The notes under the pieces are model-generated. The model saw only the letters and a program-made list of their open reading frames with translations. It was not told the DNA's origin and made no database searches. DNA of 64,000 nucleotides, from assembly GCF_964212655.1 (NCBI RefSeq), contig NZ_OZ156465.1, forward strand, positions 1,054,001 through 1,118,000. Direction: 5' to 3'. The position numbers and the translations under genes were made by a program. Positions 9,595-36,900 of the stretch are shown here, in pieces (positions within the stretch are counted from its first letter, which is position 1; every line of letters begins with the position of its first letter). This DNA is from Candidatus Thiodiazotropha sp. LNASS1. GTDB taxonomy: Bacteria; Pseudomonadota; Gammaproteobacteria; Chromatiales; Chromatiaceae.

Positions 9595-9596
9595 CT

Positions 9597-10319
9597 ATGC
9601 ATTTCGAGTTCCAGCCAATCGGCATCATCCACTCCTGTTTCAAAGAGAAATTCGGTATCCCCAGGCAGTCGCGTCTGATACCCGAAGCTGAGGCTCGGCT
9701 GGAGATCCTCCCTCCCTACAACCGGCCGGAGGCCTTTCGCGAATTGGCCGACTACTCTCATCTCTGGATTGTGTTCGTATTTCATGCATCGGCAACCGGC
9801 GAGTGGAAACCTACCGTTCGCCCTCCCCGGTTGGGCGGAAACCAACGGGTGGGGGTATTCGCCTCGCGCAGTCCCATACGCCCCAATCCCATCGGTCTCT
9901 CTGTGGTCGATCTGCTCGACCTCGAATTGTCACACAACTGTGTCAATCTGCTTTTGGGGGGTATCGACCTGTTGGACGGCACACCGGTGCTTGATATCAA
10001 ACCCTATCTACCCTATGTAGATGCCATTCCGGACGCAAACAGCGGGTACGCCGCCGATGCCCCGGGAAAGGCGATCGAATTGAGCTACTCATCAGCGGCG
10101 GAAAGGGTTCTCAAGCATATGCCGCCTGCAGAGGCCCATAAACTGCGGCAGCTGATACTGCGTGTCCTGCAAAATGACCCGCGCCCCGCTTACCTGGATG
10201 AAAGCAGAAGGAGCCGTTTCGGTATGCGCCTGCACGATTTCAATATTCGTTGGGAAGTTAAGGGGGGGACTTTTCATGTCATCGAGCTGCAATCGATCGA
10301 GGAGATCTCCGCCGACTGA
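9597..10319 (+). CDS. trmO: tRNA (N6-threonylcarbamoyladenosine-37 N6)-methyltransferase TrmO
   Basis: An S-adenosylmethionine-dependent enzyme that methylates t6A37 in tRNA. The 240 residues cover the TsaA/UPF0066 beta-barrel: FQPIGIIHSCFKEKFGIPRQ, SHLWIVFVFH and the SAM-binding RSPIRPNPIGLSVVDLL. The C-terminal segment PAYLDESRRSRFGMRL is also typical. Length equals the E. coli protein within a few residues. Confidence 0.92.
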   Translation: MHFEFQPIGIIHSCFKEKFGIPRQSRLIPEAEARLEILPPYNRPEAFRELADYSHLWIVFVFHASATGEWKPTVRPPRLGGNQRVGVFASRSPIRPNPIGLSVVDLLDLELSHNCVNLLLGGIDLLDGTPVLDIKPYLPYVDAIPDANSGYAADAPGKAIELSYSSAAERVLKHMPPAEAHKLRQLILRVLQNDPRPAYLDESRRSRFGMRLHDFNIRWEVKGGTFHVIELQSIEEISAD

Positions 10320-10534
10320 CGAGCAGCCAGCAGGACCTCATTTCTCCCCGTACGCGGATCTTTGTTGTATCTGCCCTTTTCTTCAAAGAGTGCTTCCTGT
10401 CGGCCTAACAAACCGCTATCATTCCCTGATCGGACAAGTAGTTAGAAGCTGAAGCAAATGTCGTGCATTGACACGCTGTCCCAGCGTCTCGTGCAGATAC
10501 GCCGAATTGGTAGAAAAATAAACCCAAATCCCTG

Positions 10535-12997: not shown

Positions 12998-13055
12998 AGC
13001 ATTCCTCCATCCGGGTTACTGTCATTGACTCGCCGGGGAATTAGGGAGCCGTATT

Positions 13056-13436
13056 ATGATGCAACTGCAACGATACACCCTGCCACTGATACTGATGCTG
13101 GTTTCAACACCTGCCATATCGACTGATGAGGCCAGAGCTTATCCGAGACCTGTCGAACCCCTCTATGAGGAAGGGGACGAGCAACTCAGCTGCAGGCAGC
13201 TGGAACAGCGATTGTCACACCTGGAAAGTCGATCCTACAGTGCCAAACCGGGATTCTATGAGGACCCCTATACCGGGGCGTCCATCTGGATCGGTTCCCT
13301 TTGGGTGCCAGGCGCCCTGAGCTATCTGGGTTATTCCGCTATTGCTGAATATCAAGAGAACGATCGTCTTCATCACACACAGAGCCGAATCGAGGGTCTT
13401 CGGCGGATGAAGGCCAACCTTCGATGTCATGAATAG
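13056..13436 (+). CDS. Small secreted hypothetical protein
   Basis: 126 residues with a likely signal peptide (about residues 1-22, hydrophobic LPLILMLVSTPAIS). A Pro/Glu-rich linker follows, then a short hydrophobic stretch SLWVPGALSYLGYSAIAEY, which may be a membrane anchor, and a basic helical tail. Two cysteines (SCRQLEQ and LRCHE) could form a disulfide. I do not recognise the family. It overlaps the ABC exporter gene start by 8 bp, so it is probably coupled to it. Confidence 0.6.
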   Translation: MMQLQRYTLPLILMLVSTPAISTDEARAYPRPVEPLYEEGDEQLSCRQLEQRLSHLESRSYSAKPGFYEDPYTGASIWIGSLWVPGALSYLGYSAIAEYQENDRLHHTQSRIEGLRRMKANLRCHE

Positions 13437-15258
13437 CGATGCCGCATACCCGTTGTCCAAATCCGGCTTGCGCGAGGGGGAGTATCGCTGGAACGAACTG
13501 ATCCAGATGGTGCTGCATCACCGGCGTGAGCTGGTTGCCGCCAATGTGATTGCCGTTCTGGGTGCCATAGCTGCCGTACCCGTGCCCCTGTTGATTCCGT
13601 TGTTGGTGGACGAAGTGTTGCTCGACCAACCCGGAAAGGCGATTGCCGCCATGAATGCCCTGTTTCCACAGGCCTGGCATGGACCGGTGCTGTACATTCT
13701 CGCGATTCTGGTTCTCACCCTCATCCTGCGCCTTCTCGCGCTTATCTTCGGTGTGTGGCAGACCTGGCAGTTCACGAGGATCGCCAAGGATGTCATTTTT
13801 CATATCCGGCGGGATTTGCTGCTCAGACTTGAATGCATCTCCATGTCCGCCTACGAGACCATGGGCAGCGGCACCGTCGCATCCCATCTGGTTACCGATC
13901 TGGAAGCCGTGGACAGCTTCGTCAGTGTCACCACCAGCAAGTTCCTGGTGGCTGCGTTGAGTATCATCGGGACCGCGATCGTGTTGCTCTGGATCAACTG
14001 GGCCCTGGCCTTTTTCATTCTTTTTCTCAATCCCTTGGTGATCTATTTCACCACTATTTTCGGGCGCAAGGTCAAGCAGCTCAAAAAGAGGGAGAACTCA
14101 GCCTTCCAGCTGTTTCAGGAGTCTCTCGAGGAGACCCTGGATGCCATTCAGCAGATTCGCGCCAGCAACCGGGAGCGGCACTATATAAGACGCATCATCG
14201 ACAAAGCCGACAATATCCGCCATCACTCCGCGGCGTTCACCTGGAAGAGCGATGCGGCCAATCGCCTCTCCTTCATGATCTTCCTCTTCGGTTTTGATAT
14301 CTTCCGCACTGTCAGCATGTTCATGGTGCTCTGGTCCGATCTGACGATTGGGGAAATGTTAGGCGTCTACGCCTATCTCTGGTTCATGATGGGGCCGGTG
14401 CAGGAAGTGCTGAATATCCAGTATGCCTACAATGGCGCACAGGCAGCGCTCGGCCGCATTAACGAGATGTTTAGAGTCGACCTTGAGCCGACCTATCCGC
14501 ACAACCACAATCCCTTTCTCGGCAAACCCACTGTCGGTCTCCGTCTTGAGGATATCCACTTTGCCTATGGCGATGGCTCGTCTGTATTGAACGGTGTCAA
14601 CCTGGAAGTCAAAGCCGGTGAAAAGGTTGCTTTCGTCGGAGCCAGCGGTGGTGGAAAGACCACCCTGGTTCAAATCATACTGGGCCTCTATCCCGTTAAG
14701 GCCGGACGGGTTCTGTTTGACGAGATTTCCGTAGAGGAGGTCGGTATGGACGTAGTACGGGACCATGTCGCCACCGTTCTACAACACCCGGCCCTGCTCA
14801 ATGACAGTGTCAGGATCAATCTCACCCTGGGGCGCGAGATTGCAGATGATAAATTGTGGCAGGCCCTGGAGATCGCACAGTTGCAGGATACCGTGCATGC
14901 CATGGAAAATGGTCTGGAGACACTGATCGGCCGTTTCGGTGTCCGCCTGTCCGGCGGTCAGCGGCAACGGCTTGCTATTGCACGCATGGTGTTGACCGAC
15001 CCCAAGGTGGTGATTCTCGATGAAGCCACCTCCGCCCTCGATACCACAACGGAAGGCGACCTCCATGCTGCCCTGCAGAGCTTTCTCAAGGGACGAACGA
15101 CGATAATCATTGCGCATAGACTGAGTGCTGTAAAACAGGCTGACCGGGTGCTTGTATTTGAAGATGGGCAGGTCGTTGAAGAGGGTCGTCATGAGGAATT
15201 GTTGGAAAACAACGGCCTCTATACCAGCCTGTACGGACGGCAGGAACAGCAGCGCTAG
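13429..15258 (+). CDS. ABC exporter, fused permease and ATPase (MsbA-like)
   Basis: A 609-residue inner-membrane half-transporter. Six predicted helices (about 25-330) form the ABC_membrane domain, and the nucleotide-binding domain covers about 365-600. Walker A is GASGGGKTT, the signature is LSGGQRQRLAIARM, Walker B is VVILDEATSALD and the switch histidine lies in IIIAHRLSAV. The MsbA/lipid-exporter class is the closest by layout, but the substrate cannot be read from sequence. Confidence 0.88.
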   Translation: MNSDAAYPLSKSGLREGEYRWNELIQMVLHHRRELVAANVIAVLGAIAAVPVPLLIPLLVDEVLLDQPGKAIAAMNALFPQAWHGPVLYILAILVLTLILRLLALIFGVWQTWQFTRIAKDVIFHIRRDLLLRLECISMSAYETMGSGTVASHLVTDLEAVDSFVSVTTSKFLVAALSIIGTAIVLLWINWALAFFILFLNPLVIYFTTIFGRKVKQLKKRENSAFQLFQESLEETLDAIQQIRASNRERHYIRRIIDKADNIRHHSAAFTWKSDAANRLSFMIFLFGFDIFRTVSMFMVLWSDLTIGEMLGVYAYLWFMMGPVQEVLNIQYAYNGAQAALGRINEMFRVDLEPTYPHNHNPFLGKPTVGLRLEDIHFAYGDGSSVLNGVNLEVKAGEKVAFVGASGGGKTTLVQIILGLYPVKAGRVLFDEISVEEVGMDVVRDHVATVLQHPALLNDSVRINLTLGREIADDKLWQALEIAQLQDTVHAMENGLETLIGRFGVRLSGGQRQRLAIARMVLTDPKVVILDEATSALDTTTEGDLHAALQSFLKGRTTIIIAHRLSAVKQADRVLVFEDGQVVEEGRHEELLENNGLYTSLYGRQEQQR

Positions 15259-16996: not shown

Positions 16997-17033
16997 ACTC
17001 CCACAAGTAGCTATAAAGCGGCTTGTGGGGAGT
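16997..17033. other. Hairpin across the IS110 transposase stop codon
   Basis: ACTCCCACAAG (16997-17007) pairs with CTTGTGGGGAGT (17022-17033) with one bulged base. The transposase TAG lies in the loop. It may protect the element from outside transcription or end its own message. Confidence 0.5.
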
Positions 17034-17997
17034 AAACTTGCTGGTGCTTGAGTACCCCAAAGCACAGATGTACTAATTTGCGCATAACGGCTCCTAATGC
17101 GGACATTTTGCATTTTCCTCTCGCGAGCAACCGCTCGTATAAGGCCTTGGCCGTCGGGTTGTGTAGACTGGCCACGATAGCAGGCATGTAGAGTTTGGCC
17201 CTGATCCTCGCGCTGCCTGCTTTCGACAGTCGTGGTCGCTTGTTGATGCTGGATCCGGATTGATGCTCGATGGGCACCACTCCCAGATAGGCGGCCATTT
17301 GACTAGCATGCTCAAAATCCCGGGCACGGTAGACACTCATCATGATTCGACTGAGGGTCCGGCCAATGCCTGGGATACTTTCTAGCAGCTGCTGGTCGTT
17401 TTTCAGCTGGGGGTGGGTGTCGATATGCTCATCGATCATCGCTTCCAGACGCTTTTGTTCTTGCTCCAGGCCTTTGAGCACGGTCGAGATGGAGTGCCCA
17501 ACCTCTGGATGACTGATCCCTGACAAAGCCTTCTCCAGGCGGTTGCGTTCACGCTGGATATCGCCTTGCAATGCCTCCAGCCGTGACAGTAACTCTTTGA
17601 GTTTACGTATCTCTGCCGGTTCCGGTCTCCACAGATGCAGGGGTTCTTTGGCGCCATACAAGGCTAACACCAGCGAGTCCTTTCTGTCGGTCTTGGTGTG
17701 CACCGCGATACCCTTGGCGTAATCTCTCACCTGGGCCGGGTTAAGCACCGCGACTTCACCACCTTGCTCATGCAGACCGTAGGCTAGACGCTCGTGGTAG
17801 ATGCCAGTCGCCTCCATGACAAAGCGTAACCCACTCAGTGGCTGACCAGTCTGTTTTTGTGACCAATCGAGTAGGTGGTCATGGCCGGCTGGTGTATTAG
17901 GAAAGACCTTCGACTTGACCTTGCGTGGTTCGATACTGCGTAACCACAGACAATCCAGCTTATTTTTACTCACATCAATGCCAATTATCGCTTTCAT
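17011..17997 (-). CDS. IS110-family transposase
   Basis: A 328-residue DEDD transposase. The N-terminal RuvC-like domain has IIGIDVSKNKLDCLW (first Asp), VMEATGIYHERLAYGL (Glu) and KTDRKDSLVLALYG (two Asp). The C-terminal Transposase_20 domain has ESIPGIGRTLSRI and YLGVVPIEHQSGSSINK with the catalytic serine. A coiled-coil linker lies between them. ATG 17997 gives the conserved MKAIIGID start; a GTG lies three codons upstream. The gene is intact, so the element may be active. Confidence 0.93.
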   Translation of the reverse strand: MKAIIGIDVSKNKLDCLWLRSIEPRKVKSKVFPNTPAGHDHLLDWSQKQTGQPLSGLRFVMEATGIYHERLAYGLHEQGGEVAVLNPAQVRDYAKGIAVHTKTDRKDSLVLALYGAKEPLHLWRPEPAEIRKLKELLSRLEALQGDIQRERNRLEKALSGISHPEVGHSISTVLKGLEQEQKRLEAMIDEHIDTHPQLKNDQQLLESIPGIGRTLSRIMMSVYRARDFEHASQMAAYLGVVPIEHQSGSSINKRPRLSKAGSARIRAKLYMPAIVASLHNPTAKALYERLLARGKCKMSALGAVMRKLVHLCFGVLKHQQVYSPQAAL

Positions 17998-18183
17998 TCT
18001 CTTCACTCACCTTGTTCATGCAGCCTCTCTCCGTAATGCCGGAGGGACTCCGATACCATTCAGTTTATAGAGAATCGGTGATAGCCTGTATCTACAAAAC
18101 AGACTCGTGGTCTCAGGGTGCGGTGCAGGTCTTATCACCGTGTGATGAATTGCTAGCTAAACAATTCATCAGAAGAGATACAA

Positions 18184-18301: not shown

Positions 18302-18823
18302 CTATTCCAGTGCCCAGCGCCGCAACACCTGATAACGTGTCCCGGATGAACCCGGGTTCGCCGAAGACGCCAAGACAAACTCGCTCACCTGCCAGACAAT
18401 AGGCTCTGACAGCTGTTGCGGGGCAACCCGGCGCGCTTTCCTGTAAAGGGTGACATGGGGTTTATAACTGCGCTCCTCCGGTTCGTGTCCACAACCGGTC
18501 AGGCCATTGTTCAAATCCACAACCAGTTGGCTGAGCGCTGAGGGCGTCTCTCCCGGTGAGGCCCAGAATATCCTGGGTCTCGACCAATAGCCGGTATGAT
18601 CAATCGACAACTCGATCGGCGCCCCCCTGATACCATCGGCGACATTTTCGATACAGCGCTTTTGGGATGGCACTATCTGACCGAGAAAGACCAGGGTCAT
18701 ATGCAGATCCTCTGCAATATGACGGCGCCCTTCTCCCGGCTCGGATGTATGCGCCAAGGCACTCAGGCGATACCGCACCTCCTCGTCCGGCCATAGGGCA
18801 AAGAAATAACGCTCCTCACTCAT
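18302..18823 (-). CDS. thpR: RNA 2',3'-cyclic phosphodiesterase (2H family)
   Basis: A 173-residue member of the 2H phosphoesterase family that opens 2',3'-cyclic phosphates on RNA and can ligate tRNA halves in vitro. Both catalytic HxT motifs are present: HMTLVFLG near residue 40 and HVTLYRKA near residue 125. YFFALWPDEEVR at the start is typical. The ATG at 18823 is preceded in frame by TTG. It is the last gene of the long minus-strand run and is separated from pncC by 150 bp, so it may have its own promoter. Confidence 0.9.
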   Translation of the reverse strand: MSEERYFFALWPDEEVRYRLSALAHTSEPGEGRRHIAEDLHMTLVFLGQIVPSQKRCIENVADGIRGAPIELSIDHTGYWSRPRIFWASPGETPSALSQLVVDLNNGLTGCGHEPEERSYKPHVTLYRKARRVAPQQLSEPIVWQVSEFVLASSANPGSSGTRYQVLRRWALE

Positions 18824-18973
18824 CAATCAGTCTGATTACCTCTCTCACTCCGCTATTGAATCCATGCTCCATTCAGTCTTGAAACGATAGCGATGCCGCT
18901 AGCTTTATTCTCGAGCTTTAAAGTGACGCTCCTATATAGCCGTGATTGATGGAACAGAGCCCCACCACATTGA

Positions 18974-19489
18974 TCAATTGGAGGTGCGAGGCGCGCTCAG
19001 TATACCCTCAAGTTGTTGCAAAGCGCAGACCACCGCCTGCCAACGCACCTGGTTGCGATCACCATTGAAAAAGTGCCGCTGGGCCATTCCCTCGTTATCC
19101 TTGACCTGCCAGGCGAAGCAGACGGTTCCCACCGGCTTTTCCTTGCTGCCGCCACCGGGCCCGGCAATCCCGCTGATCGCCACTGCAACGTCGGCACCGC
19201 TTTCAGTCAATGCTCCTTGCGTCATCTCCAGGACGCAGGCTTCACTTACCGCACCGGATTGTTGCAGGGTTGTTGACGAGACGCCCAGCATTGTCTGTTT
19301 CGACTGATTGCTGTAGGTCACAAATCCGCGGTCGAACCAATCGCTGCTCCCAGGCAGATCGGTCAAAATCTTGGCAAGCCATCCACCGGTGCAGGACTCG
19401 GCAACAACCAGACGATAACCCTGTTGGCGCAGCCGGCCGGCACATACTCCTGTTAGCTCTTCAACGGCTTGAGCCGAGGTAATATCCAT
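18974..19489 (-). CDS. pncC: Nicotinamide-nucleotide amidase (CinA C-terminal family)
   Basis: Deamidates NMN to nicotinate mononucleotide in pyridine-nucleotide recycling. The 171 residues equal the stand-alone PncC length. LVVAESCTGGWLAKILTDLP has the nucleophilic serine, and VAVAISGIAGPGGGS is the second signature. The start codon directly follows the amphi-Trp stop (19490), so it is translationally linked to that operon. In many gammaproteobacteria pncC instead sits beside recA. Confidence 0.93.
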   Translation of the reverse strand: MDITSAQAVEELTGVCAGRLRQQGYRLVVAESCTGGWLAKILTDLPGSSDWFDRGFVTYSNQSKQTMLGVSSTTLQQSGAVSEACVLEMTQGALTESGADVAVAISGIAGPGGGSKEKPVGTVCFAWQVKDNEGMAQRHFFNGDRNQVRWQAVVCALQQLEGILSAPRTSN

Positions 19490-19765
19490 CTATTTCACTT
19501 TAACCTTTAAATTCTTGCTCTTTTTCGGCCTATCCGCTTCGACCTGCCAGGTAATGCGTAGATTGATGCGATGCCGTTCCTCATCCTGAGTGGCGGCGAC
19601 TTTCAACTGCAGCAATCCATTTGGCTGCATAACCATCTCGCCATCCTCATCGCTGAGGGTCAGTTTACCTTTTGCGATCCCTTGAGAGATCGCCTTTAGA
19701 AGCGCCTGAATCGACTCTTTATCCTGCAACGATTCATGACGGAAGTTTTTTTTACCCTGTCTCAT
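19490..19765 (-). CDS. Amphi-Trp domain protein
   Basis: A 91-residue protein matching the amphi-Trp family (TIGR04354, from memory). It has an N-terminal helix rich in Glu/Lys (FRHESLQDKESIQALLKAI), strands in KGKLTLSDEDGEMVM and LLQLKVAATQ, and the tryptophan strand INLRITWQVE with a basic tail. Members occur beside HprK-related kinases and the GAK ATP-grasp enzyme, as here. The biochemical role is unknown to me. Confidence 0.8.
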   Translation of the reverse strand: MRQGKKNFRHESLQDKESIQALLKAISQGIAKGKLTLSDEDGEMVMQPNGLLQLKVAATQDEERHRINLRITWQVEADRPKKSKNLKVKVK

Positions 19766-19815
19766 GATTGTTTTCCAACTCTACATCGATTAAGCATAGG
19801 CTGGTCAGAGATTGC

Positions 19816-21162
19816 CTATGTAAATGACTTATAGTCGAACACCTTGATATGCGGATAGTCGGTACTGATACCCATCACAAGCTGTTTCGGATGAAAGATG
19901 GTCACTGCGGCACCCTTTCCTTTGAGCCCTTCCTTAATGCGAGTATAGCGGTCGATAGTGGCGTCGCATTCAAAGTGGATCATCCCCTTACGCAGCATGA
20001 TCCTTTGTCCGTAATGACGGTTGGCATGGCCATGCACTATGGTGTGGATGCCCGCATCGTGCATCAAGTCGCTCCCTTTGCGTGTCAACGGCATATCCAC
20101 GTCCCGGTATTTTGTGCGAATCAGATTGGCCATCGGTCCATAGTAAAATTCAAAAATCTCATCTTCGACACTGTCCCTGAACTCCTTGTTGATGTACTTG
20201 ATGCCTTTACGCTCAATCAGTTTCGCCATCCTGTCGTCTATACCTGCGTGGACAAAGAGAAAAGAGCCCTGGCGGTAGACCAGTTGCATCTGCTTGTAGA
20301 ACCAAATGAATTCTCCCTTTGGCTTGAGAAACAGCTGTTGCCATTTCATCACAGCAGCATAGACATGGCGCAATGAGAGACCTACCGCCTCGCAGTCCGA
20401 TTCAAAGTCGTCTATCTTCTCCTTGAGACGTTTCAGCTCCCTGGCCATACGTTTATCAGGCATGACCCAGCTCGCCATTTTCGGAAACTCCTTAAACCAG
20501 CGCTTCGGCGGGTAGAGTATGCGTCGGCAGGTGCGTGTAGGCGGCACACCCTTCAATGCATCCTTATCCTGAAGATACTCATCGACGATTTCACGCAACA
20601 TGGGTATGACCTTGCTGCCCATGCGTATAAAGAAGTGGTCGTGGCGAGGATCGGGATCCATGCCCACCGACGCAATACCCAACTTGACGCGCAGATCGTG
20701 ATTACCCGCCAGCAGCACTACCCTGGCTCCCAGCTGTTTCAGCTGTTGTATCGACCGCAACAGTTTTAGGTTGCTTGGCCCCTTGTCGAAACAGTCCCCG
20801 CCGATGACGAAAATGGCATCTTTGCCATGTGAGGTCAGCTTCAACGCATGCTGTTTACTCCCTGTCTTTTTCACCCCACCCGATGCCACCAGAGAGGCGA
20901 TCAAGGCATCCGCGTCGGCATGCAGGTCGGAGAAGAAGTAGAGCTTGCGTTTTGGCCACTGCCATTTACCTCGTTTCACCACTTCTCTCAACAGCCCCGC
21001 CGCTGAACTGCGCTGCCCCCTCTCTTTGACAACCGAACGCTGTCTGCCCAAGAGCCACGGCTGACTGTTTGTAGGCAGTTCCACATCAAGCCATTTCCGA
21101 CCCTTGTATACCGGCAGATACCGGGTGTGACGTTCGATACTGTTTTTGTTCTTAGTCGTCAA
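19816..21162 (-). CDS. Calcineurin-like/PPP-type metallophosphoesterase
   Basis: A 448-residue phosphatase with the PPP/ApaH-like metal motifs in order: SDLHAD (DxH), GGDCFDKGP (GDxxDxG), LLAGNHDLRV (GNHD) and HTIVHGHANRH (C-terminal GH). It has a basic N-terminal extension of about 90 residues and a long helical insert in the middle. The start is TTG 21162, supported by AAGGAG six bases upstream; it overlaps the end of the preceding phosphatase gene by 11 bp. The substrate (protein, nucleotide or phosphorylated metabolite) is unknown. Confidence 0.82.
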   Translation of the reverse strand: MTTKNKNSIERHTRYLPVYKGRKWLDVELPTNSQPWLLGRQRSVVKERGQRSSAAGLLREVVKRGKWQWPKRKLYFFSDLHADADALIASLVASGGVKKTGSKQHALKLTSHGKDAIFVIGGDCFDKGPSNLKLLRSIQQLKQLGARVVLLAGNHDLRVKLGIASVGMDPDPRHDHFFIRMGSKVIPMLREIVDEYLQDKDALKGVPPTRTCRRILYPPKRWFKEFPKMASWVMPDKRMARELKRLKEKIDDFESDCEAVGLSLRHVYAAVMKWQQLFLKPKGEFIWFYKQMQLVYRQGSFLFVHAGIDDRMAKLIERKGIKYINKEFRDSVEDEIFEFYYGPMANLIRTKYRDVDMPLTRKGSDLMHDAGIHTIVHGHANRHYGQRIMLRKGMIHFECDATIDRYTRIKEGLKGKGAAVTIFHPKQLVMGISTDYPHIKVFDYKSFT

Positions 21163-21856
21163 ATGATTCTCCTTTCGAGCGGATCTTCCACTCTCCAGTC
21201 AGATGCTGCCATGATCCATCCGGCAGACGTTCGAGAAAAACCGGTCGGCAATGATACATACTCAGTGCCGCAATCTGATCAAATGACAATACACCGAGAT
21301 GGTGGGCGGCATGACGAAAGGCAGCACCATGACCGACAAACAACTTCACGCTATCCGACTTCACTTGCGATTGCAGTTCTAAAAGCCGGCGCTCCATGTG
21401 CTCCGCCACCCGTTGGCCGGCATCCATGAGTGACTCCGCCCCCTGAAGCGGCAGTCGATAGTGGCTGTCGGACTTCCAACCAGCTGGCGGTTGCGAAAAC
21501 CGGGGATCGTCCCGCAACACCGACTCAATCTGTTGCAACGACAGGTTGGCCGCTGAACCCAGGGAACGCTCGGCCAGTGCATCGTATGATTCGATCTGCA
21601 ATCTATCCGGACTCGCAATCTGTAATCCCTTGCGAATCATTTCAGCGGTCTGCCAACCACGCAACAAGCGCGAACTGTCGATTACCGGATACAAGCGCCA
21701 TTTGAACATTTCGAGGACACCCTGAATCAGGGTTACCGAGCGCTCTGCCTGCTCTGCCCCAACCCCGGTCAGGGGATAGGGTTGCAGTGCACTCGGGGTA
21801 TCAGGCAGTTGGTGATACTCGCCATGACGCAATATGGCGGCTATCAATCTAGCCAC
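21152..21856 (-). CDS. Histidine phosphatase family protein
   Basis: A 234-residue phosphoglycerate-mutase-like phosphatase. The N-terminal AAILRHGEYHQL holds the phospho-acceptor His of the RHG motif, and LFVGHGAAFRHAAHHLGV the second catalytic His. SRLLRGWQTAEMI supplies the conserved arginine region. Start GTG 21856 is the only good candidate before RHG. It is translationally coupled to the downstream metallophosphoesterase. The substrate is unknown. Confidence 0.8.
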   Translation of the reverse strand: MARLIAAILRHGEYHQLPDTPSALQPYPLTGVGAEQAERSVTLIQGVLEMFKWRLYPVIDSSRLLRGWQTAEMIRKGLQIASPDRLQIESYDALAERSLGSAANLSLQQIESVLRDDPRFSQPPAGWKSDSHYRLPLQGAESLMDAGQRVAEHMERRLLELQSQVKSDSVKLFVGHGAAFRHAAHHLGVLSFDQIAALSMYHCRPVFLERLPDGSWQHLTGEWKIRSKGESFDD

Positions 21857-21914
21857 GACTCAGCGCCATATAAGACAGAGGGTGTTCGTTGATCAAGACC
21901 ATGCGTTTGACGAC

Positions 21915-22880
21915 CTACCCATTCAATTGCTTGGCCAGGGCTTGTATCATCGGTTTCAATTCAGCCTGCTTGACCCTTTTCATCGCCTGTTTAGGCGCCA
22001 GCCACTCGCGTCCGCGATGATGCTCCTCCCACTCGTCTTCCGGCAATTCGCGGGTAACCTGCATCGGGTAGACACTCACCGTGCATTCTGCACCCCATTT
22101 TTCATAGGAATAGGCGCCTATGGGCTCTTCAGCAACCTCCCCCTCGACACCCGCCTCCTCCAAGGCCTCTTTTGCTGCCGAATCCTGCAGGCTCAATGCA
22201 GGCTCGCTAATCCCTTTCGGCAATACCCAATGCTTCCGCTTACTCGACATGACCACCAGGATTTCAACCTCACCCTCCTCTATCCGATAAGGAATCACCG
22301 AGGATTGTTTGTAGTAATAGGCCGGTCGATCCCGCATCTCAGTGCCATGTTCATCGGGAAAGGGAAACTTCTTGTCCATACTGCTCGGGCGAACGATGGA
22401 CAGCAGTTCACCGTCCCCTGCCTTCAGATCAATCCAGTCATCCGGCATTTCAAGATGCGCCAAAGTTGCGGTGGGAATCAGTTTGCCGTCACTGGGCAAA
22501 GGGATGCGTTCACCGTGCAGATACTCTGTCAGCATCTCCAATCCCGGGTTGTGTCCCACCAACATGACCCGCTTGCTGTCAGGTGGCACATCCGAGAGTA
22601 CCCGCAACAATTCACCCACATTGGCGGCATAGATGCGCCGATCCTGTACGATGGCATAGGCATCGCCACCCATCGCCTTCACCGTCTTCTGAGCAGTCAC
22701 GATGGCACGCTCTGCGGGTGAACTGATGACATAATCGGGCTGTAACTGCTGCTGCAGCAACCACACCCCCATGCGTTGGGCGCCACGTTTGCCGCGATCC
22801 TTTAGCGGGCGCTTGAAATCTTCTAACTGTTGACTCCAATCGGATTTCCCGTGTCTGAGCAACATCAATTCTCTAGTCAT
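21915..22880 (-). CDS. SixA-type histidine phosphatase fused to a NUDIX hydrolase
   Basis: 321 residues in two domains. Residues 1-160 are SixA-like, with LMLLRHGKSDW and MLVGHNPGLEML as the two catalytic histidine segments. Residues about 185-315 are NUDIX, with WVLPKGISEPALSLQDSAAK running into EALEEAGVEG. The box keeps the EALEEAG catalytic glutamates, but Leu replaces the first Glu and Lys the Arg. That looks nearest the diphosphoinositol-polyphosphate type, which is a loose similarity only. The fusion implies removal of two different phosphates from one substrate or pathway. Confidence 0.8.
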   Translation of the reverse strand: MTRELMLLRHGKSDWSQQLEDFKRPLKDRGKRGAQRMGVWLLQQQLQPDYVISSPAERAIVTAQKTVKAMGGDAYAIVQDRRIYAANVGELLRVLSDVPPDSKRVMLVGHNPGLEMLTEYLHGERIPLPSDGKLIPTATLAHLEMPDDWIDLKAGDGELLSIVRPSSMDKKFPFPDEHGTEMRDRPAYYYKQSSVIPYRIEEGEVEILVVMSSKRKHWVLPKGISEPALSLQDSAAKEALEEAGVEGEVAEEPIGAYSYEKWGAECTVSVYPMQVTRELPEDEWEEHHRGREWLAPKQAMKRVKQAELKPMIQALAKQLNG

Positions 22881-22925
22881 TGTCTGTCTGCCTCATACAG
22901 TTCTTAGTTGCTGGGTGTCTGCTTG

Positions 22926-24056
22926 CTAGGGCCTGTCATCGCTCATCCATAACTTCAAACACAACTCTTTCAACCCGGCAAAATCTATTTTACCTGTCAC
23001 CTCATAGATTGGGACACGCTTCAGCAGATCCAGATAAGGAGCGGGCTGAAGCGGTTCATCATCCCTTATAAACTCACCAAGGCTATCCTGAAAGAATGGC
23101 CCTGGAGACTTCATCACCGCATTCAGTAATTCACTGCGTTGCGCAATATCGACCTTTGTCATCTTAACCGGTGCACGCTCACCCCTGCTCCAGTTCAGGA
23201 TCACCATCGCGTCAAAGGATACGGGTGTCGAGGTATCGATACGATCGCTGCCATACAGCCGTTCAACATCCACATCGAACTTCTCTTCAAGCTCCCATAG
23301 CTCCTGTTGCGGCAACTTCAGCAGCTGCTCCCTTCTCTGTTCATCGATCAGCGGTGAAAGCCGCGAACTGTTCACCACGGTGCCTGGATTGATACGGGGA
23401 AGCTTGGGGATACCCACCGCCTCCACCCCGACGCCCCGACGTCGCAGGAAGAGCCGGTCGTTGGTCAGATAGCGACTCTTCGGGTGTTCCATCAGATGCA
23501 ACATCAGGGTCGACTTGCCACCCCCGGAAAATCCGGCCATGGCGATCGCATGATTGTTCAGGATCAAGCCGGCGGCGTGACAGATCAGCCACTCCCGCTG
23601 CTGCAACCAGTTCATTACCTGTGAATTGATGAAATTGATCAGCTGGTTGTCATTTTCCTCACAAGGTCCGACCGCGATGCGCCACTGCTCGCTCTGCAGA
23701 AACAGCATGCCGGTGCGCACCTTGAGCACCAGGCGGCCATCCGTCAGTTCCACATAGGCATCCTTGCGCCCGCTTTTACCCGCTTCGCGGCGCCAGTCGA
23801 TAAACGGCAGACCGGTCTCGAGCTTGTCGCTCTCGATCGCAGTGACTTCGATGGTCGCCAGACCCCTGGTCTTGGGCAGATGATGAAAATAGCTTGCCAA
23901 CCGATCCAGCAGCGACTGACTGTTGGAACGAATCACCAGGACACAATCACCTATGTTCAGCTGCAACGGCTCCCCGCACAGTTGCACTTTTTGCATAAGC
24001 AGCTTGGCCGCATCCCCGGCACTGCTGACACCAACCCACTCGGCAGGTATGTTCAT
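22926..24056 (-). CDS. HprK-related kinase B
   Basis: A 376-residue kinase related to HPr kinase/phosphorylase. The P-loop GFSGGGKSTLMLHLMEH sits near residue 175, followed by YLTNDRLFLRRRG, the counterpart of the HprK catalytic segment. The N-terminal 160 residues are a separate domain. This matches the HprK_rel_B family (TIGR04355, from memory) of the GAK system. It overlaps the ATP-grasp gene by 4 bp (ATGA). The phosphorylated target, protein or small molecule, is not known. Confidence 0.82.
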   Translation of the reverse strand: MNIPAEWVGVSSAGDAAKLLMQKVQLCGEPLQLNIGDCVLVIRSNSQSLLDRLASYFHHLPKTRGLATIEVTAIESDKLETGLPFIDWRREAGKSGRKDAYVELTDGRLVLKVRTGMLFLQSEQWRIAVGPCEENDNQLINFINSQVMNWLQQREWLICHAAGLILNNHAIAMAGFSGGGKSTLMLHLMEHPKSRYLTNDRLFLRRRGVGVEAVGIPKLPRINPGTVVNSSRLSPLIDEQRREQLLKLPQQELWELEEKFDVDVERLYGSDRIDTSTPVSFDAMVILNWSRGERAPVKMTKVDIAQRSELLNAVMKSPGPFFQDSLGEFIRDDEPLQPAPYLDLLKRVPIYEVTGKIDFAGLKELCLKLWMSDDRP

Positions 24057-24943
24057 ACTTCGAGTTCCTCCAGCATATAGGCCACATAACGGGATGGCAC
24101 ATCGATGCCCATACCCTCTTTCGCCCCACGAAAACCACCGAATGCGGAGACCTCGAAGACCACCGGTCCCTGTTCGGTCTCCGCCACATCGACAGTGGTA
24201 AAATCGAGACCGAAGATTGCCTGCGCCTTGCGGGCAAGCGTCACCAACGCCTCGTCGGCCTGATAACCCTCGTAGTGACCGCCGCTCCTGATGGTGGTAT
24301 TCCAGGTCCCCGATTTACCCACCCGGGCGTAGCTACCGAGATATTCCCCATCGAGAAACACCATTCCCAGATCCCTGCCCGGTAGCGCGAGCTTTTTCTG
24401 GATGTACATCACCGGATTGTCCACCCGAAAGGCCTCGATCTGTTGCAGCAGCTGTTGCGGATCCTGATCGGCATCGATCAACGTCATCCCTCTGGCCTTG
24501 GTGGAATAGAGCGGTTTGAAGACAGCCGATCCGAATGCAGTGACCGTATCGGCAGCTATGGCAATTCTCTCGGTGACGCGGGTTGGGGGCATGGGAATAT
24601 CTGCATTGTAGAGCGACAGGGTGCAGCTGAGACGGTCGATCAGGCGGATGATACGCTCTACCTTGCTGAACACCCGCACCCCGGCACGCTGCAACTGGCG
24701 CAACATCTCCAGTCTGTCCAGGACATGGGGACTGTACTCTTCGCTGATCTTTTTCACCACGACCCCATCGAGACGGGTCAGATCATGCTCCCGATAGACG
24801 AGTCTGCCGCTGTCGAGTTCGGCACAAACCTCGGCCATGTCGATCACCAGGCGAAAGCCTGTGGCCGCCTCCACCGCGTCCGCCAGGGCCTCCGTGGACC
24901 ATTTTCCAGGGATGCCGACCACCCCGATCTTCGGTTTAGCCAA
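24053..24943 (-). CDS. GAK-system ATP-grasp enzyme
   Basis: A 296-residue RimK-like ATP-grasp ligase. SAVFKPLYSTKARGM is the ATP-binding small fold, and RDLGMVFLDGEYLGSY and VVFEVSAFGGFRGAKEG supply the metal-binding region. Members join an acid to an amine through an acyl phosphate. It matches the family named for the GAK system (TIGR04356, from memory). Start is TTG 24943 with AAGGAG seven bases upstream; it overlaps the upstream gene by 8 bp. Confidence 0.82.
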   Translation of the reverse strand: MAKPKIGVVGIPGKWSTEALADAVEAATGFRLVIDMAEVCAELDSGRLVYREHDLTRLDGVVVKKISEEYSPHVLDRLEMLRQLQRAGVRVFSKVERIIRLIDRLSCTLSLYNADIPMPPTRVTERIAIAADTVTAFGSAVFKPLYSTKARGMTLIDADQDPQQLLQQIEAFRVDNPVMYIQKKLALPGRDLGMVFLDGEYLGSYARVGKSGTWNTTIRSGGHYEGYQADEALVTLARKAQAIFGLDFTTVDVAETEQGPVVFEVSAFGGFRGAKEGMGIDVPSRYVAYMLEELEV

Positions 24944-26573
24944 TGAATATCTCCTTTACGGGCACCACAAATGGGCGCTTGGATTTGGATTCGCTCTCGA
25001 GCAGTCTCTCCATCAGATAGGTGGCGCGCGAGAACATGCGCTCCGACAGGGATTTATCAAGAATAAAACGGGTTGAAGTGGCAAAGGAGCGGATCAGGCC
25101 CATCGCCAGCCGCAGCTCGAAGCTCTCATCCCCCTGTTTGCGGGCAAAGACCCTGGCGAAGCGATAGAAGGCGTGGCAGAGATCCATGATCCGCTGCCTG
25201 ACCCGGGGATCGAACACCCGCAGTCGGTAGTTGGAGACCATGAAGACGCTGACATCCTGCAGATAGTCCATATAGCTGGAACGGTGCAGATCGATGAAAT
25301 TGATACGTTTCTCCCGCGGGTCGAAGATGATGTTATCGACGTTGAAATCACCATGGATATAGACGGAAAACGGCGCCTTGACGTCAGACTCGAAGCGTTG
25401 CATCCGTTTCAGGAGATCATCGAATGCGGGAAACGCTGCGCCTCCGATATTGACCGCAGGCTGTCTGAATTCGGGATGGATGGCATACACATCCCCCATG
25501 CGCTTCGCCAGCTGTTTCATATACCCGGCGGAGACAGGTTTTTTGGTCTTGGTCTCAAGCCATACCTGTGTCAGGGTCTTGGTCAGATGATTCAGGGCCT
25601 GCTGAAGCAGCGCATCAGAACCGTCCAGCAGGATCTGTTCGAAGGTCTGCCCCGCCAGGTGCTCAATCAACAGGGCCGCGGAATCGCCCTGTTTCTGATA
25701 GGCGAGGATCTTCGGCGCCAGTCCGGGAAAGATATCGTGCCAATCATTGACCCGCTGCTTCTCCTCCTTCAGCTTACGCTTTCGGCCATCCTTGAAGATG
25801 GCGTGGTAACCGCTGCCCTTTTCATTGCTGCTGAGCGCGTTGATGGCGCTGCCCGATTTGGTCTCTGCGATCGGTTTGAACGCCAGTTCATCGATGTCGT
25901 TCACTGTCTTGAGCTCTGTCACCGAGGCATTGAATGCATGGTAGCGGTCGGTACTGAAATGCTGCCCCATCGACGCAGAGATGATCGCCTCGCTGACCCG
26001 CAACATGGCATTGCCCATCTGCTCGATAATATGCGCCAACATGATGAGCGAAATCCGATCCGCCGGATGCTTCTCCTTTTTCAGCAGCCGTGAGTATCGT
26101 TTGAGCTGTTTTTGGTAGGCATCGACCAGGTGTCGTTCCACCTTGCCGATCTTCAGGGCGCGGCGGGTATCCTTGGCCGACAACGCGGGTTCGATCAACT
26201 CCAGTCCATTGTTGACCCGGTCGATCATGGCTAGAAAATCCTTCACCTTCAGCATACCCCGATGTTGGACATGGGCGCTCTGCATCACCGCATCCCGGCA
26301 AAGCTCCACAATCCGCTCCAGCTGGCTGGCGATCACCTCCACCGATCTCAGTAACTGGTAATCCGCATCCTGCCCGCGGGATGAAGACATCTCTCGCAAA
26401 CAGTGGTTATGGATGCTCAGCTTCAGGTTTTCCACATACCCCTGACGGTCCAGCAGCCGCATGGGGATGGTTGCCGTAGGCAGGGTCAGATAATCTTCCA
26501 GCAGGGAGAGGTGGGTGGTGGTCTCAGTCAGCAGAAAATGAAGATTTTCCTGGATGCTTTTGGCGAGGGGCAT
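24936..26573 (-). CDS. PhoU-like domain fused to an aminoglycoside-phosphotransferase-type kinase
   Basis: 545 residues. Residues about 1-215 are all-helical and PhoU-like (KIGKVERHLVDAYQKQLKRY, and IEQMGNAMLRVSEAI). Residues about 250-520 are an APH/choline-kinase fold with the Brenner motif VYIHGDFNVDNIIFD and the metal-binding INFIDLHRSS. It therefore looks like a small-molecule kinase with a phosphate-signalling-type domain. ATG 26573 is chosen because it begins one base after the NUDIX stop; the longer open frame upstream is a shadow of the NUDIX gene. Confidence 0.75.
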   Translation of the reverse strand: MPLAKSIQENLHFLLTETTTHLSLLEDYLTLPTATIPMRLLDRQGYVENLKLSIHNHCLREMSSSRGQDADYQLLRSVEVIASQLERIVELCRDAVMQSAHVQHRGMLKVKDFLAMIDRVNNGLELIEPALSAKDTRRALKIGKVERHLVDAYQKQLKRYSRLLKKEKHPADRISLIMLAHIIEQMGNAMLRVSEAIISASMGQHFSTDRYHAFNASVTELKTVNDIDELAFKPIAETKSGSAINALSSNEKGSGYHAIFKDGRKRKLKEEKQRVNDWHDIFPGLAPKILAYQKQGDSAALLIEHLAGQTFEQILLDGSDALLQQALNHLTKTLTQVWLETKTKKPVSAGYMKQLAKRMGDVYAIHPEFRQPAVNIGGAAFPAFDDLLKRMQRFESDVKAPFSVYIHGDFNVDNIIFDPREKRINFIDLHRSSYMDYLQDVSVFMVSNYRLRVFDPRVRQRIMDLCHAFYRFARVFARKQGDESFELRLAMGLIRSFATSTRFILDKSLSERMFSRATYLMERLLESESKSKRPFVVPVKEIFIG

Positions 26574-26574
26574 G

Positions 26575-27063
26575 TCAGTCGATGACTCCCAGATATGTCG
26601 GTGTCGTCGCTTGCGCAAGACCGGGCAGATGAGGTGCCAATCCCTTGGGGAAGATCTCATGGTTGAGGATATCGGCAAAGGGCACCCACACCACATCGAC
26701 CTGATGTTTGTCGGGATGGTGACCCGATGCGGGTTGATAGCTTGCCGGCAGGGTACAACCGAACAGAAACTCAACCAGATGCCGCACCGAAGGGTAGGCC
26801 GTATCGCGCTGTTTGTAGAAATCGGCAATCGCGAGCAGGCTCTCGATCTCCACGGTGGCGCCGATCTCCTCCTCGCATTCACGCACCAGTGCCTGGACCA
26901 GGGTCTCGTGCACATCCTGACCTCCACCGGGAAGGGTGTACCAGGTACCGCGCTGTTGCGCCCATTTCTTCTGCATCAATACCGCATGATCACGTACGAT
27001 CACAGCGCGCACGGCATTACGGATGTTCGGTTCCAGCCCTTTTTGTTGTGGTCGGTCGTTCAT
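26575..27063 (-). CDS. NUDIX hydrolase
   Basis: A 162-residue NUDIX enzyme with a perfect box, GGQDVHETLVQAL then VRECEEEIGA (Gx5Ex7REUxEExG pattern). It hydrolyses a nucleoside-diphosphate-X type bond; the substrate is unknown. It is the first gene of the minus-strand GAK-type operon and lies directly upstream of the PhoU-like/APH fusion. Confidence 0.88.
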   Translation of the reverse strand: MNDRPQQKGLEPNIRNAVRAVIVRDHAVLMQKKWAQQRGTWYTLPGGGQDVHETLVQALVRECEEEIGATVEIESLLAIADFYKQRDTAYPSVRHLVEFLFGCTLPASYQPASGHHPDKHQVDVVWVPFADILNHEIFPKGLAPHLPGLAQATTPTYLGVID

Positions 27064-32025: not shown

Positions 32026-34806
32026 ATGACACCGCCCGAAGAAACCCTCCTCGAAACCCAAACCCGCGAAGCGATTGACCGCAAACTCACCGACGCGGGC
32101 TGGGTCATCCAGGACAAAAAGCGAATCAACCTCTATGAATCCCTGGGCGTGGCGGTACGGGAGATGGACACGGACACAGGTCCCGCCGACTACATGCTCT
32201 TCATCGACGGCAAGGCTTGCGGCATTATCGAGGCCAAGCGGGAAGGCACCGACCTCGGCGGCGTGGCCGAACAATCCGCCCGCTACGCTAGCTCCCAGAC
32301 CAAATTCATCGAACGCTGGGTGGCGGAAGACCAGCCCCTACCCCTGTTATACGAGGCAACCAACCACGAGATACGCTTTCGGGACGAGCGTGATCCCCAC
32401 CCCCGCTCACGCAACATCTTCCACTTCCATCGCCCCGAAACCCTGCTCGATAGACTGCAGGAAGAAGAGACCTTACGCGCAAGACTGCAACAACTGCCCA
32501 GTCTAAACACGGAAAACCTTCGTAACTGCCAGATCGACGCCATCACCGGCATCGAACACAGCCTCAAACAGGGCAAACCCCGCGCCCTGCTGCAAATGGC
32601 CACCGGCTCCGGTAAAACCTACACCGCCGTCACCCAGGTCTATCGCCTGGCCAAATTCGCCAAAATCAAGCGGGCCTTGTTCCTGGTCGACCGTGGCAAC
32701 CTCGCCACCAATGCCAAGGATGAATTTGAACAATTCGTCATCCCCCACGATGGCCGCAAATTCACCCAACACTACAACGTCAACATCCTCGGCCGCGCCG
32801 GCATCCCTGACGCCACCAAGGTCACCATCTCCACCATCCAGCGCCTCTATTCCCAACTCACCAACCAGGAGCTGGATGACGAAGCCGACGAACACTCTGG
32901 TTTCGAAGTAGAAGCCAGCACCATCAATAAAGAACTAAGACCCGTCAGCTACAACCCCGACATCCCCATCGAAGAGTTCGATGTCATCATCATCGACGAA
33001 TGCCACCGCTCCATCTACAACCTCTGGCGCCAGGTGCTCGAATACTTCGATGCCTTTCTGATTGGCCTCACAGCTACACCCACCAAAAAGACCATCGGCT
33101 TTTTTAATCAAAACCTCGTCTCCGAATACACCCACGAAGACGCCGTGGTCGACAAGGTCAATGTGGGCTACGACATCTACCGCATCAAAACCGAGCTGAC
33201 CGAGCAGGGCAACAAAATCGACGCCGGCACCACCGTCGAAATCCGCGACCGCCTCACTAAACAAAAACGCCTCGAAGTGCTCGATAGCCAGGAAGAATGG
33301 CTCGCCCAACAACTCGACCGCAGCGTCCTGGCCCCCAACCAAATTCGCACCGTCATCCAGGCCTTCAAAGACTGCTGCCTGAAAGAATGCTTCCCCCATC
33401 GCAACTGGCAACAAGACAAGATGGAATGGGTCCCCAAAACCCTCATCTTCGCCAAGGACGACGACCACTGCGACCGCATCGTCGATGCCGTGCGCGAAGT
33501 CTTCGATGAAGGCAACGCCTTCTGCAAAAAGATCACCTACAAAGTCGGCAAAATAACCGCAGAAGAATCCATCAAAGCCTTCCGCACCGATCCGCAATAT
33601 CGTATCGCCGTCACCGTCGACATGATCGCCACCGGCACCGACATCCGGCCCCTGGAATGCGTCATGTTCATGCGCGATGTCAAAAGCCAGGCCTACTACG
33701 AACAAATGAAAGGCCGCGGCACCCGCATCATCAGCCGCGACGAACTTCACAAAGTCACCCCCGATGCCTTCGGTAAAAGCCGCTTTGTCCTGGTCGATTG
33801 CGTCGGCGTTACCGAAACAGACAAAACCGAAACCAAATCACTGGAAACCAAACCCAGCATCTCCACCGCCAAACTCATGGAACAAGTCGCCAGAGGCGAT
33901 CGCCACTCCGACACCCTGCGCGCCCTGGGTAACCGCATGATCCGGCTCGACCTCAAACTTAATGACCAACAACGCAAACGCATTAGTGAACTCGCCGGCA
34001 AACCCCTGGCCCTCATCGCCGGCGAACTCATTCATGCCACCAATGAAGAACCATTAATCGAAGCGGCCAAAATACACGCAAAAACCAAAGAGCCGAATGA
34101 AAAACAAATCCAGGAAGCCTTTAAACCCAAGGCTGATATTCTGATCAAACCCTTCCACAACCCGGACCTGCGCGTACTTTTGGAAGAATACCGCAAGGAA
34201 ACCGACCAACTCATCGACGACAGCGCCGACGAACTCATCAGCGCCGGTTACGATGAAGAAAAAGCCGAAGTCCTCATCCAGAACTGGCAGCAATTTATTC
34301 AAGACCACAAAAACGAACTCGACGCCATCCAGCTCATCTACCAGCTGCCCTACCAAAAGCGCCACCTGAGTTACGAGCAAATCGAAAAACTGGCGGAAGA
34401 AATCCAGCAACCTCCGTATAATCTTGCACCCATCGAAGTATGGAAGGCCTACGAACAGTTGGAAAAGAACAAAGTCAAAGGCGTGCCGCCCAAAGAACTG
34501 TTAACCAATATCGTCAGCCTCATACGTTTTTCCACCGGCCTAAGCGATGTACTCGAACCCTTTACCGAGCTGGTCAACAACCGCTTTGATAACTGGCTAA
34601 AACAACAAGGCAAAGATTTCCAGCCAGAACAACTCGCCTGGCTCAACAAAATCAAAGACCAAATCGCCCAAAATGCCGAAATGACGGTAGAAGACTTTAA
34701 CTACATCCCCTTTAACCAGGAGGGTGGATTATTAAAGGCGAGGGAGCTGTTTGGGAAAGAATTAGAACCACTAATCAGTGAATTGAACGGATATTTGATT
34801 GCATGA
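32026..34806 (+). CDS. hsdR: Type I restriction enzyme, R (motor/nuclease) subunit
   Basis: 926 residues of the EcoEI-like R family. The N-terminal PD-(D/E)XK nuclease has PADYMLFIDGKACGIIEAKR. The helicase has Walker A QMATGSGKTYTA, Walker B IIIDECHRSIYN (DECH box), motif III LTATPTKKT, and motif VI in QMKGRGTRI. The C-terminal 330 residues are the EcoEI_R_C assembly domain. It translocates and cuts unmethylated DNA with HsdM and HsdS. Stop and hsdS start overlap (ATGA). Confidence 0.94.
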   Translation: MTPPEETLLETQTREAIDRKLTDAGWVIQDKKRINLYESLGVAVREMDTDTGPADYMLFIDGKACGIIEAKREGTDLGGVAEQSARYASSQTKFIERWVAEDQPLPLLYEATNHEIRFRDERDPHPRSRNIFHFHRPETLLDRLQEEETLRARLQQLPSLNTENLRNCQIDAITGIEHSLKQGKPRALLQMATGSGKTYTAVTQVYRLAKFAKIKRALFLVDRGNLATNAKDEFEQFVIPHDGRKFTQHYNVNILGRAGIPDATKVTISTIQRLYSQLTNQELDDEADEHSGFEVEASTINKELRPVSYNPDIPIEEFDVIIIDECHRSIYNLWRQVLEYFDAFLIGLTATPTKKTIGFFNQNLVSEYTHEDAVVDKVNVGYDIYRIKTELTEQGNKIDAGTTVEIRDRLTKQKRLEVLDSQEEWLAQQLDRSVLAPNQIRTVIQAFKDCCLKECFPHRNWQQDKMEWVPKTLIFAKDDDHCDRIVDAVREVFDEGNAFCKKITYKVGKITAEESIKAFRTDPQYRIAVTVDMIATGTDIRPLECVMFMRDVKSQAYYEQMKGRGTRIISRDELHKVTPDAFGKSRFVLVDCVGVTETDKTETKSLETKPSISTAKLMEQVARGDRHSDTLRALGNRMIRLDLKLNDQQRKRISELAGKPLALIAGELIHATNEEPLIEAAKIHAKTKEPNEKQIQEAFKPKADILIKPFHNPDLRVLLEEYRKETDQLIDDSADELISAGYDEEKAEVLIQNWQQFIQDHKNELDAIQLIYQLPYQKRHLSYEQIEKLAEEIQQPPYNLAPIEVWKAYEQLEKNKVKGVPPKELLTNIVSLIRFSTGLSDVLEPFTELVNNRFDNWLKQQGKDFQPEQLAWLNKIKDQIAQNAEMTVEDFNYIPFNQEGGLLKARELFGKELEPLISELNGYLIA

Positions 34807-36263: not shown

Positions 36264-36286
36264 AAACTAAGTCAGGGTCTAATTGA

Positions 36287-36847: not shown

Positions 36848-36900
36848 CGGGGTTCAAAAGTAGAATTTTCCAATTATGATTACGAAAAGGAGAATCTACA

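Follow-up and report, generated by a model that had tools for sequence, protein, structure and literature searches.

The closest described counterpart of the locus analysed here is the GAK system, which is defined by the NCBIfam families TIGR04354 to TIGR04357 and, in its deltaproteobacterial form, includes an XXXCH protein. A search of the open literature by family name or accession returned no paper on the GAK families or on one of their members, amphi-Trp. We analysed a 64,000-nucleotide stretch of Candidatus Thiodiazotropha sp. LNASS1 (the window; positions 1,054,001 to 1,118,000 of contig NZ_OZ156465.1, in a genome assembled as a single contig of 4.75 Mb), in which a minus-strand operon of eight genes runs from position 27063 to position 19490. 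The three families that give the GAK system its name all scored above their cut-offs in the operon: amphi-Trp (TIGR04354) at 68 bits against 31, the HprK-related kinase B (TIGR04355; kinase B below) at 334 bits against 200, and the ATP-grasp enzyme (TIGR04356) at 429 bits against 300. The fourth, CofD_GAK (TIGR04357), is encoded elsewhere in the host genome, far from the operon (G000:C1:4627244-4628347, E 1e-159). By this family test the locus belongs to the GAK system, as a first-pass annotation of the window had proposed for these three genes, and it represents the proteobacterial form of that system. We tentatively read the system, at somewhat less than an even chance of being right, as a reversible phosphorylation cycle that serves phosphate and polyphosphate economy and includes a PhoU-gated kinase.

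The operon starts with a NUDIX hydrolase (162 aa, 26575-27063; Pfam PF00293, 61.5 bits), a variable member, followed by a PhoU-APH fusion kinase (545 aa, 24936-26573; Pfam APH, 44 bits) whose N-terminal part is a PhoU-like helical domain. Then come the ATP-grasp enzyme (296 aa, 24053-24943), kinase B (376 aa, 22926-24056), a SixA-NUDIX fusion (321 aa, 21915-22880; Pfam His_Phos_1 and NUDIX), a branch 1 histidine phosphatase (HisP; 234 aa, 21152-21856; Pfam PF00300, 46.5 bits), a calcineurin-like metallophosphatase of the PPP type (PPP; 448 aa, 19816-21162; Pfam Metallophos, 34.9 bits) and amphi-Trp (91 aa with a lysine-rich tail, 19490-19765; also above cut-off for Pfam PF20068). Families were assigned with Pfam and NCBIfam models. 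In contrast to the members of the GAK system as defined, PhoU-APH, HisP, PPP, NUDIX and SixA-NUDIX have no NCBIfam model over cut-off, and their RefSeq names are generic. The NUDIX stop and an ATG of PhoU-APH are separated by one base, and we therefore take 24936-26573, not a longer GTG frame, as the PhoU-APH gene; with this start, no gap among the eight genes exceeds 58 bases, the other junctions being overlaps. ATP-grasp overlaps PhoU-APH and PPP overlaps HisP, both overlapping genes having a TTG start with a good ribosome-binding site ahead of it, and the ATP-grasp/kinase B junction is an ATGA overlap. Compared with locus L005, dN/dS of the eight genes was 0.02-0.15. Promoter- and terminator-like sites were no more numerous than in shuffled sequence.

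Gene order ties PhoU-APH, HisP, PPP, NUDIX and SixA-NUDIX to GAK, and whole-genome searches show PhoU-APH, PPP and SixA-NUDIX co-occurring with it; randomly varying neighbours, which would have refuted the first-pass annotation, were not what we found. We mapped the members by iterated profiles in 59 stretches (25 loci of named genomes, 33 stretches from other genomes and the window), and 43 non-redundant loci were left after 16 near-duplicates or fragments had been dropped. As the loci were found via the ATP-grasp gene, counts over loci are conditional on it; the whole-genome searches are not. PhoU-APH and ATP-grasp were present in all 43 loci, kinase B in 42, amphi-Trp in 38, PPP in 37 (including one 63-residue remnant), HisP in 36, NUDIX in 28 and SixA-NUDIX in 26. 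PhoU-APH lay directly ahead of ATP-grasp, within 100 bases, in 43/43 loci, and NUDIX lay within 100 bases ahead of PhoU-APH in all 28 loci that have it. PhoU-APH, ATP-grasp and kinase B thus form a constant core, which most loci supplement with amphi-Trp, HisP and PPP; NUDIX and SixA-NUDIX are each present in roughly two thirds of the loci. The phosphatases and NUDIX enzymes that had been described as joined to GAK are, then, usual or frequent members, not universal ones. Pairwise distances of six families were correlated (r 0.68-0.90, 33 loci), although shared species history alone would account for part of this.

Among 147 genomes of the order, ATP-grasp scored above cut-off in 34 and PhoU-APH in the identical 34; among 398 genomes of the phylum, both did so in the identical 13. 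G179, from the phylum sample, is a partial exception, as its ATP-grasp frame matches from position 101 only, with an unrelated first third, and is found without PhoU-APH. PPP was also detected in 34 of the 147 genomes, with G010 missed and G016 added; a contig end truncates the operon in each of these two, and we therefore count 35 GAK genomes in the order. Full-length SixA-NUDIX occurred in 36 genomes, namely the 34 with ATP-grasp together with G137 and G142, the other 76 of the 112 genomes matching in this search carrying the SixA half only. In G073 the operon has come apart into three pieces (NUDIX-PhoU-APH-ATP-grasp; kinase B-SixA-NUDIX with HisP further on; PPP-amphi-Trp), and all eight genes are retained. 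The genome samples contain related genomes, so that counts are not independent: 22 of the 35 GAK genomes belong to the host's genus, and GAK occurs in 9 of 48 genera. Composition, fixed order, co-occurrence and retention after the split make a common function very likely. The view that these are unrelated housekeeping genes adjacent by chance, which could appeal at most to the generic names that public records give to PhoU-APH, HisP and PPP, is refuted by the same-genome co-occurrence, the fixed order and the retention after the operon broke up; we give it practically no credence.

Some absences have a simple origin. Those in L011 and L079, and that of amphi-Trp in L096, fall at contig ends, and L081 is part of the split genome G073. 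GAK operons are cut by contig ends in L079 and L110 (both G134), L104 (G016) and L109 (G010), and in simple presence tables such cuts would look like gene loss. PhoU-APH is divided into two frames near the domain boundary in L075 and L076, from two genomes of one genus. Amphi-Trp was absent from the 19.7 kb of L012.

We then compared the active sites of the operon proteins with those of known enzymes, counting residues in 21 to 30 chosen rows per family from a subset of the loci. The C-terminal half of PhoU-APH is an APH-fold kinase with the motif HGDFNxDN...FIDLHR, in which H407, D409, N414 and D428 were invariant (30/30 rows). Its profile matched PhoU in the PDB over positions 7-223 (E 2e-12) and APH(3') at E 1e-6; our literature search found no PhoU-kinase fusion in print. 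Kinase B shares the fold, the P-loop and the preceding His with HPr kinase/phosphorylase and PEP carboxykinase (PEPCK). As judged by Foldseek, its AlphaFold2 model (pLDDT 94.2) matched PEPCK at E 6e-8 and HprK/P at E 5e-6, and H160, the P-loop G180-K181-S182-T183 and N199-D200 were invariant (29/29 rows). Unlike HPr kinase/phosphorylase, however, kinase B constitutes a family of its own and has Asn for the first Asp of the ADD of HprK in 29/29 rows, as compared by eye with the separate HprK of the host (locus L123, where it adjoins what we take to be RapZ- and RpoN-like genes). It did not match the curated HprK family; the best match was HprK_rel_B, followed by HprK_rel_A far under cut-off. 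The ATP-grasp enzyme is similar over its full length to the amino-acid ligases RimK, MptN and LysX, RimK structures being matched at E 6e-20 (profile against PDB). It differs from them in forming its own family, in having EVS instead of EVN at the metal site (23/23 rows; the host's own RimK-like paralogue has EVN) and in scoring below RimK-type cut-offs (rimK_fam, 91 against 143 bits; MptN, 141 against 350 bits).

The PEPCK/HprK fold of kinase B and the RimK similarity of ATP-grasp would also suit a protein-modification switch, in which kinase B would phosphorylate a small protein, most simply amphi-Trp, the RimK-like enzyme would add an amino-acid tail, and HisP, PPP and SixA would reverse these steps. 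Amphi-Trp, at 91 aa, is about the size of HPr. It accompanies the kinases in 38/43 loci, and L014, L017 and L019 keep it though they lack HisP and PPP next to the kinases; its Ser12 is retained in 24 of 26 rows. Yet Ser12 is Ala in the other two, so no fixed phosphosite is visible; nor is a RimK/LysW-style C-terminal tail, since the last residue differs between rows (K 10, S 7, D 4, R 2, G 2, A 1; n=26). The AlphaFold2 model of amphi-Trp (pLDDT 86.6), a helix with a four-stranded sheet, found no close known fold in the PDB (best match E 0.6). For these reasons (Ser12 and the C-terminus not strictly conserved, no fold match) amphi-Trp was rejected as an HPr-like or LysW-like carrier. The Asn of kinase B at the first Asp of ADD also speaks against the switch, which moreover leaves the NUDIX enzymes and PhoU unexplained. 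We regard it as somewhat unlikely, though with an appreciable chance of being correct.

On the hydrolytic side, HisP residues R10, H11, R66, E96 and H176, which we take to be catalytic, were invariant (23/23 rows). PPP contains the motifs DxH, GGDxxDKGP, GNHD, HAG and GH, with motif residues invariant in 25/25 rows, and its nearest PDB sequences are ApaH (E 1e-3). The NUDIX box of the first gene is intact, as judged by eye. In the NUDIX half of SixA-NUDIX, E238, E241 and E242 were present in 21/21 rows, and the nearest PDB sequences to its profile are diphosphoinositol polyphosphate phosphohydrolases (DIPP; E about 1e-14). The SixA domain of this fusion, in contrast, falls under the TIGR00249 cut-off (52.5 against 74.5 bits) and keeps all of R9, H10 and H110 in 14/21 rows, including the window, at least one being lost in 7/21. 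The two histidine phosphatase domains thus appear unequal, HisP having the complete set and SixA being degenerate in part of the rows, and the SixA half is, on these residues, a weak argument for activity. The first-pass annotation had counted both among phosphatases opposing the kinases, a count that has to be qualified for SixA.

The DIPP-like NUDIX half brings to mind the eukaryotic inositol-pyrophosphate enzymes, since ATP-grasp, histidine phosphatase and DIPP-like NUDIX, enzymes of like kinds, are brought together in one GAK unit. The kinase domain of PPIP5K is an ATP-grasp domain. PPIP5K is described as having a kinase and a phosphatase domain in the abstract of PMC11836120, and 1-InsP7 as being hydrolysed by DIPP/Ddp1 in a passage of PMC12678693. 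By analogy, GAK might be a bacterial counterpart of eukaryotic inositol-pyrophosphate phosphate sensing and use a soluble, densely phosphorylated pyrophosphate messenger. An inositol-like compound or another polyol would be the acceptor on which the ATP-grasp/kinase set builds the messenger, and the DIPP-like NUDIX, histidine and PPP phosphatases would erase it. The PhoU-gated kinase would couple this messenger both with phosphate status and with polyphosphate granules of the CHAD-ParA kind. The kinds of enzyme, on which this analogy rests, are compatible with it. However, none of the 16 matches that the ATP-grasp profile has in the PDB is PPIP5K, the GAK HisP is of branch 1, and there is no inositol gene among the operon families. 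We consider such a counterpart improbable.

The genes around the operon point to phosphate and polyphosphate, although the direct link is confined to a minority of the loci. PPN2 belongs to the enzymes with a PPP fold. As stated in part of PMC6537752, CHAD domains bind polyphosphate, and Ddp1-type NUDIX enzymes and PPN2 are polyphosphatases; CHAD proteins localise to polyphosphate granules, according to a passage of PMC9239181. A section of PMC10892726 describes ppk, parA and CHAD as an adjacent conserved group in Acidithiobacillus, and a legend of the same source names SixA, PPX and CHAD in archaeal gene groups. We counted flanking genes, up to about 10 kb, in 42 of the 43 non-redundant loci (L081 left out). 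As in the CHAD-ParA-PPK groups, CHAD-ParA pairs adjoin GAK in 5/42 loci (L020, L022, L024, L096, L098), in differing arrangements. In L024, CHAD, ParA, CYTH, PhoU-APH, ATP-grasp, kinase, HisP, PPP and amphi-Trp form one run on one strand; in L098 two further genes accompany the pair, which is placed between PPP and amphi-Trp. Immediately upstream of the GAK genes in L094, the opposite strand encodes a Na/Pi cotransporter that includes a PhoU domain. In G137 and G142, which have SixA-NUDIX without GAK kinases, this gene is grouped with CofD_GAK and a Na/Pi cotransporter; the G137 group further contains CHAD, ParA and a transporter permease as well as a PhoU gene. These phosphate-related clusters without GAK kinases (L105 of G137, 2-13827; L106 of G142, 1022-9514) include CNNM/CorC proteins, one identified by Pfam in L105 and the others by resemblance; the PhoU gene in L105 has a weak LMW-phosphatase match, and L106 includes a NUDIX gene.

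CHAD-type ParA (E up to 1e-40) was found in 33/35 GAK genomes and 33/112 others, and by genus in 8/9 GAK and 15/39 other (p 0.009). It occurs in 66 of the 147 genomes of the order; in those whose coordinates we inspected by eye, G000 and G137 among them, it lies beside CHAD. CHAD alone, in 112/147 genomes, is too common to help. The CHAD-ParA pair is a candidate positioning system for polyphosphate granules. The host's own pair, whose genes overlap stop to start, lies away from the operon (L115, 8602-10892), a difference from the CHAD-ParA-PPK groups.

CofD_GAK was detected in 28/35 GAK genomes against 5/112 others (genera, 7/9 against 5/39), and a CofD-like gene lies in the flanks of 15/42 loci; two of these were scanned, both above the TIGR04357 cut-off. 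The presence of CofD_GAK next to the operon or at another site of the genome, together with MptN as the second-best model of ATP-grasp, would be expected of a pathway to a dedicated phosphorylated cofactor or compatible metabolite. In such a pathway the APH and HprK-like kinases would phosphorylate, an MptN/RimK-like ligase would add glutamate, a CofD-like protein would join a phosphodiester, and the hydrolases would proof-read or recycle. We find this unlikely: CofD_GAK was not found in 7/35 GAK genomes, the two scanned copies match the YvcK model after TIGR04357, and most of the loci have no redox, transport or scaffold-building gene in common.

Two kinases, one of them fused to a PhoU domain, and an ATP-grasp enzyme, accompanied in most loci by two phosphatases and often by a NUDIX of a pyrophosphate-cleaving type, lead us to read the system as a phosphate-gated cycle of making and erasing. 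In such a cycle the PhoU domain would sense phosphate status and gate its fused kinase; PhoU-APH, kinase B and ATP-grasp would spend ATP on a common acceptor, giving a multiply phosphorylated and possibly also ligated product. HisP and PPP would strip phosphomonoesters and the DIPP-like NUDIX half would cleave a pyrophosphate link, so that the level of the product would report or buffer phosphate, with amphi-Trp perhaps serving as a small binding or acceptor subunit. The first-pass annotation had already proposed that a highly phosphorylated compound or protein modification would be made and broken. This proposal fits the intact active sites and gains strength from the CHAD/CYTH/Na-Pi context, and we infer the link to phosphate from neighbours and folds, as we do the directions of the steps, the gating by PhoU and the role of amphi-Trp. 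The product may be either a small molecule or a protein modification.

Several observations weigh against a reversible cycle tied to phosphate. In L014, L017 (where the 63-residue PPP remnant lies just ahead of amphi-Trp), L019 and L025, the kinases have neither HisP nor a full PPP next to them although the flanks are present, and therefore the breaking arm is not always local; L091 likewise has no HisP next to its kinases. The loci with amphi-Trp but without HisP and PPP lean slightly to a protein modification. The Asp at the position we take to be the second metal motif of PhoU is only partly kept in PhoU-APH (D 16, E 5 of 30 rows; N in the window), and glutamate ligases are the closest relatives of the ATP-grasp family. 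Direct linkage to CHAD-ParA is limited to the five loci above, the ParA type being present in GAK-free genomes as well, and no phosphate-transport or CHAD gene was seen beside the operon in the window. PPK1 is not clearly enriched (31/35 GAK against 82/112 other genomes, p 0.07) and does not separate the two groups. It was not found in 4/35 GAK genomes, two of them single-contig, and therefore polyphosphate made by PPK1 need not be the substrate; as an obligate substrate it was rejected.

Beyond the eight genes, the operon is followed by two co-directed neighbours, pncC (nicotinamide-nucleotide amidase, 18974-19489, minus strand; NF002975 barely above cut-off) and a thpR-like open reading frame (18302-18826, minus strand), which we take to belong to the 2'-5' RNA ligase family. 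All nine minus-strand genes of the first-pass annotation, pncC included, were located; eight of them make up the operon, and pncC is a local neighbour. It occurs in 7/43 non-redundant loci (17/59 stretches), all from Thiodiazotropha or lucinid-symbiont records apart from L009. The thpR-like gene likewise occurs in 7/43, and both were rejected as members of the system, being confined to the genus and one relative. Among the named organisms of the scan, the one closest to the host is Candidatus Thiodiazotropha endolucinida (97% identity in ATP-grasp), a symbiont of lucinid clams; the host is a relative of clam symbionts. Next past the thpR-like gene lies a transposase-like gene (17011-18006), presumably of the IS110 type, judging from its sequence. 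G+C in the window is 0.38 at 38-40 kb and 0.65 at 50-52 kb, and about 0.5-0.57 elsewhere; the shifts at 34001-46000 and 50001-52000 possibly reflect an island or unusual gene content.

The GAK unit extends across Gamma- and Alphaproteobacteria with five to eight genes, and a shorter form occurs in one Longimicrobiales assembly (L025); in named marine strains it is carried by plasmids. Among 72,556 plasmid records, 5 have the ATP-grasp gene, and the organism names listed for these all belong to Rhodobacterales. The three plasmids examined (L124, L125 and L126, from Tritonibacter, Qingshengfaniella and Pseudooceanicola) have the order PhoU-APH, ATP-grasp, kinase B, HisP, metallophosphoesterase, amphi-Trp, with CofD_GAK upstream in two. 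The GAK-bearing Rhodobacterales plasmids are large and typed as non-mobilizable; plasmid carriage suggests horizontal spread of the operon. This carriage and the patchy presence (34/147 genomes) might also be expected of an anti-phage defence operon. PADLOC, however, gave one match for NUDIX (37.5 bits), a marginal one for PhoU-APH (E 8.5e-4) and none for the other six proteins, and the ATP-grasp gene is present in 21 of the 22 genomes of the host's genus, the 22nd carrying an operon fragment. A defence system, very improbable in our estimate, was rejected, the PADLOC result itself being uninformative.

Membership of the GAK system follows from known families. What is new is that PhoU-APH is a constant member, HisP and PPP are usual ones and NUDIX and SixA-NUDIX frequent ones, that pncC does not belong, and that the context is one of phosphate and polyphosphate. 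Once its members are defined and linked to phosphate storage, GAK is no longer just the name of a family but a pathway that can be tested, for which the Rhodobacterales plasmids carrying it offer a convenient genetic test system. The predictions are a PhoU-regulated kinase and, as its counterpart on the product side, a phosphorylated compound or protein modification that would be new.

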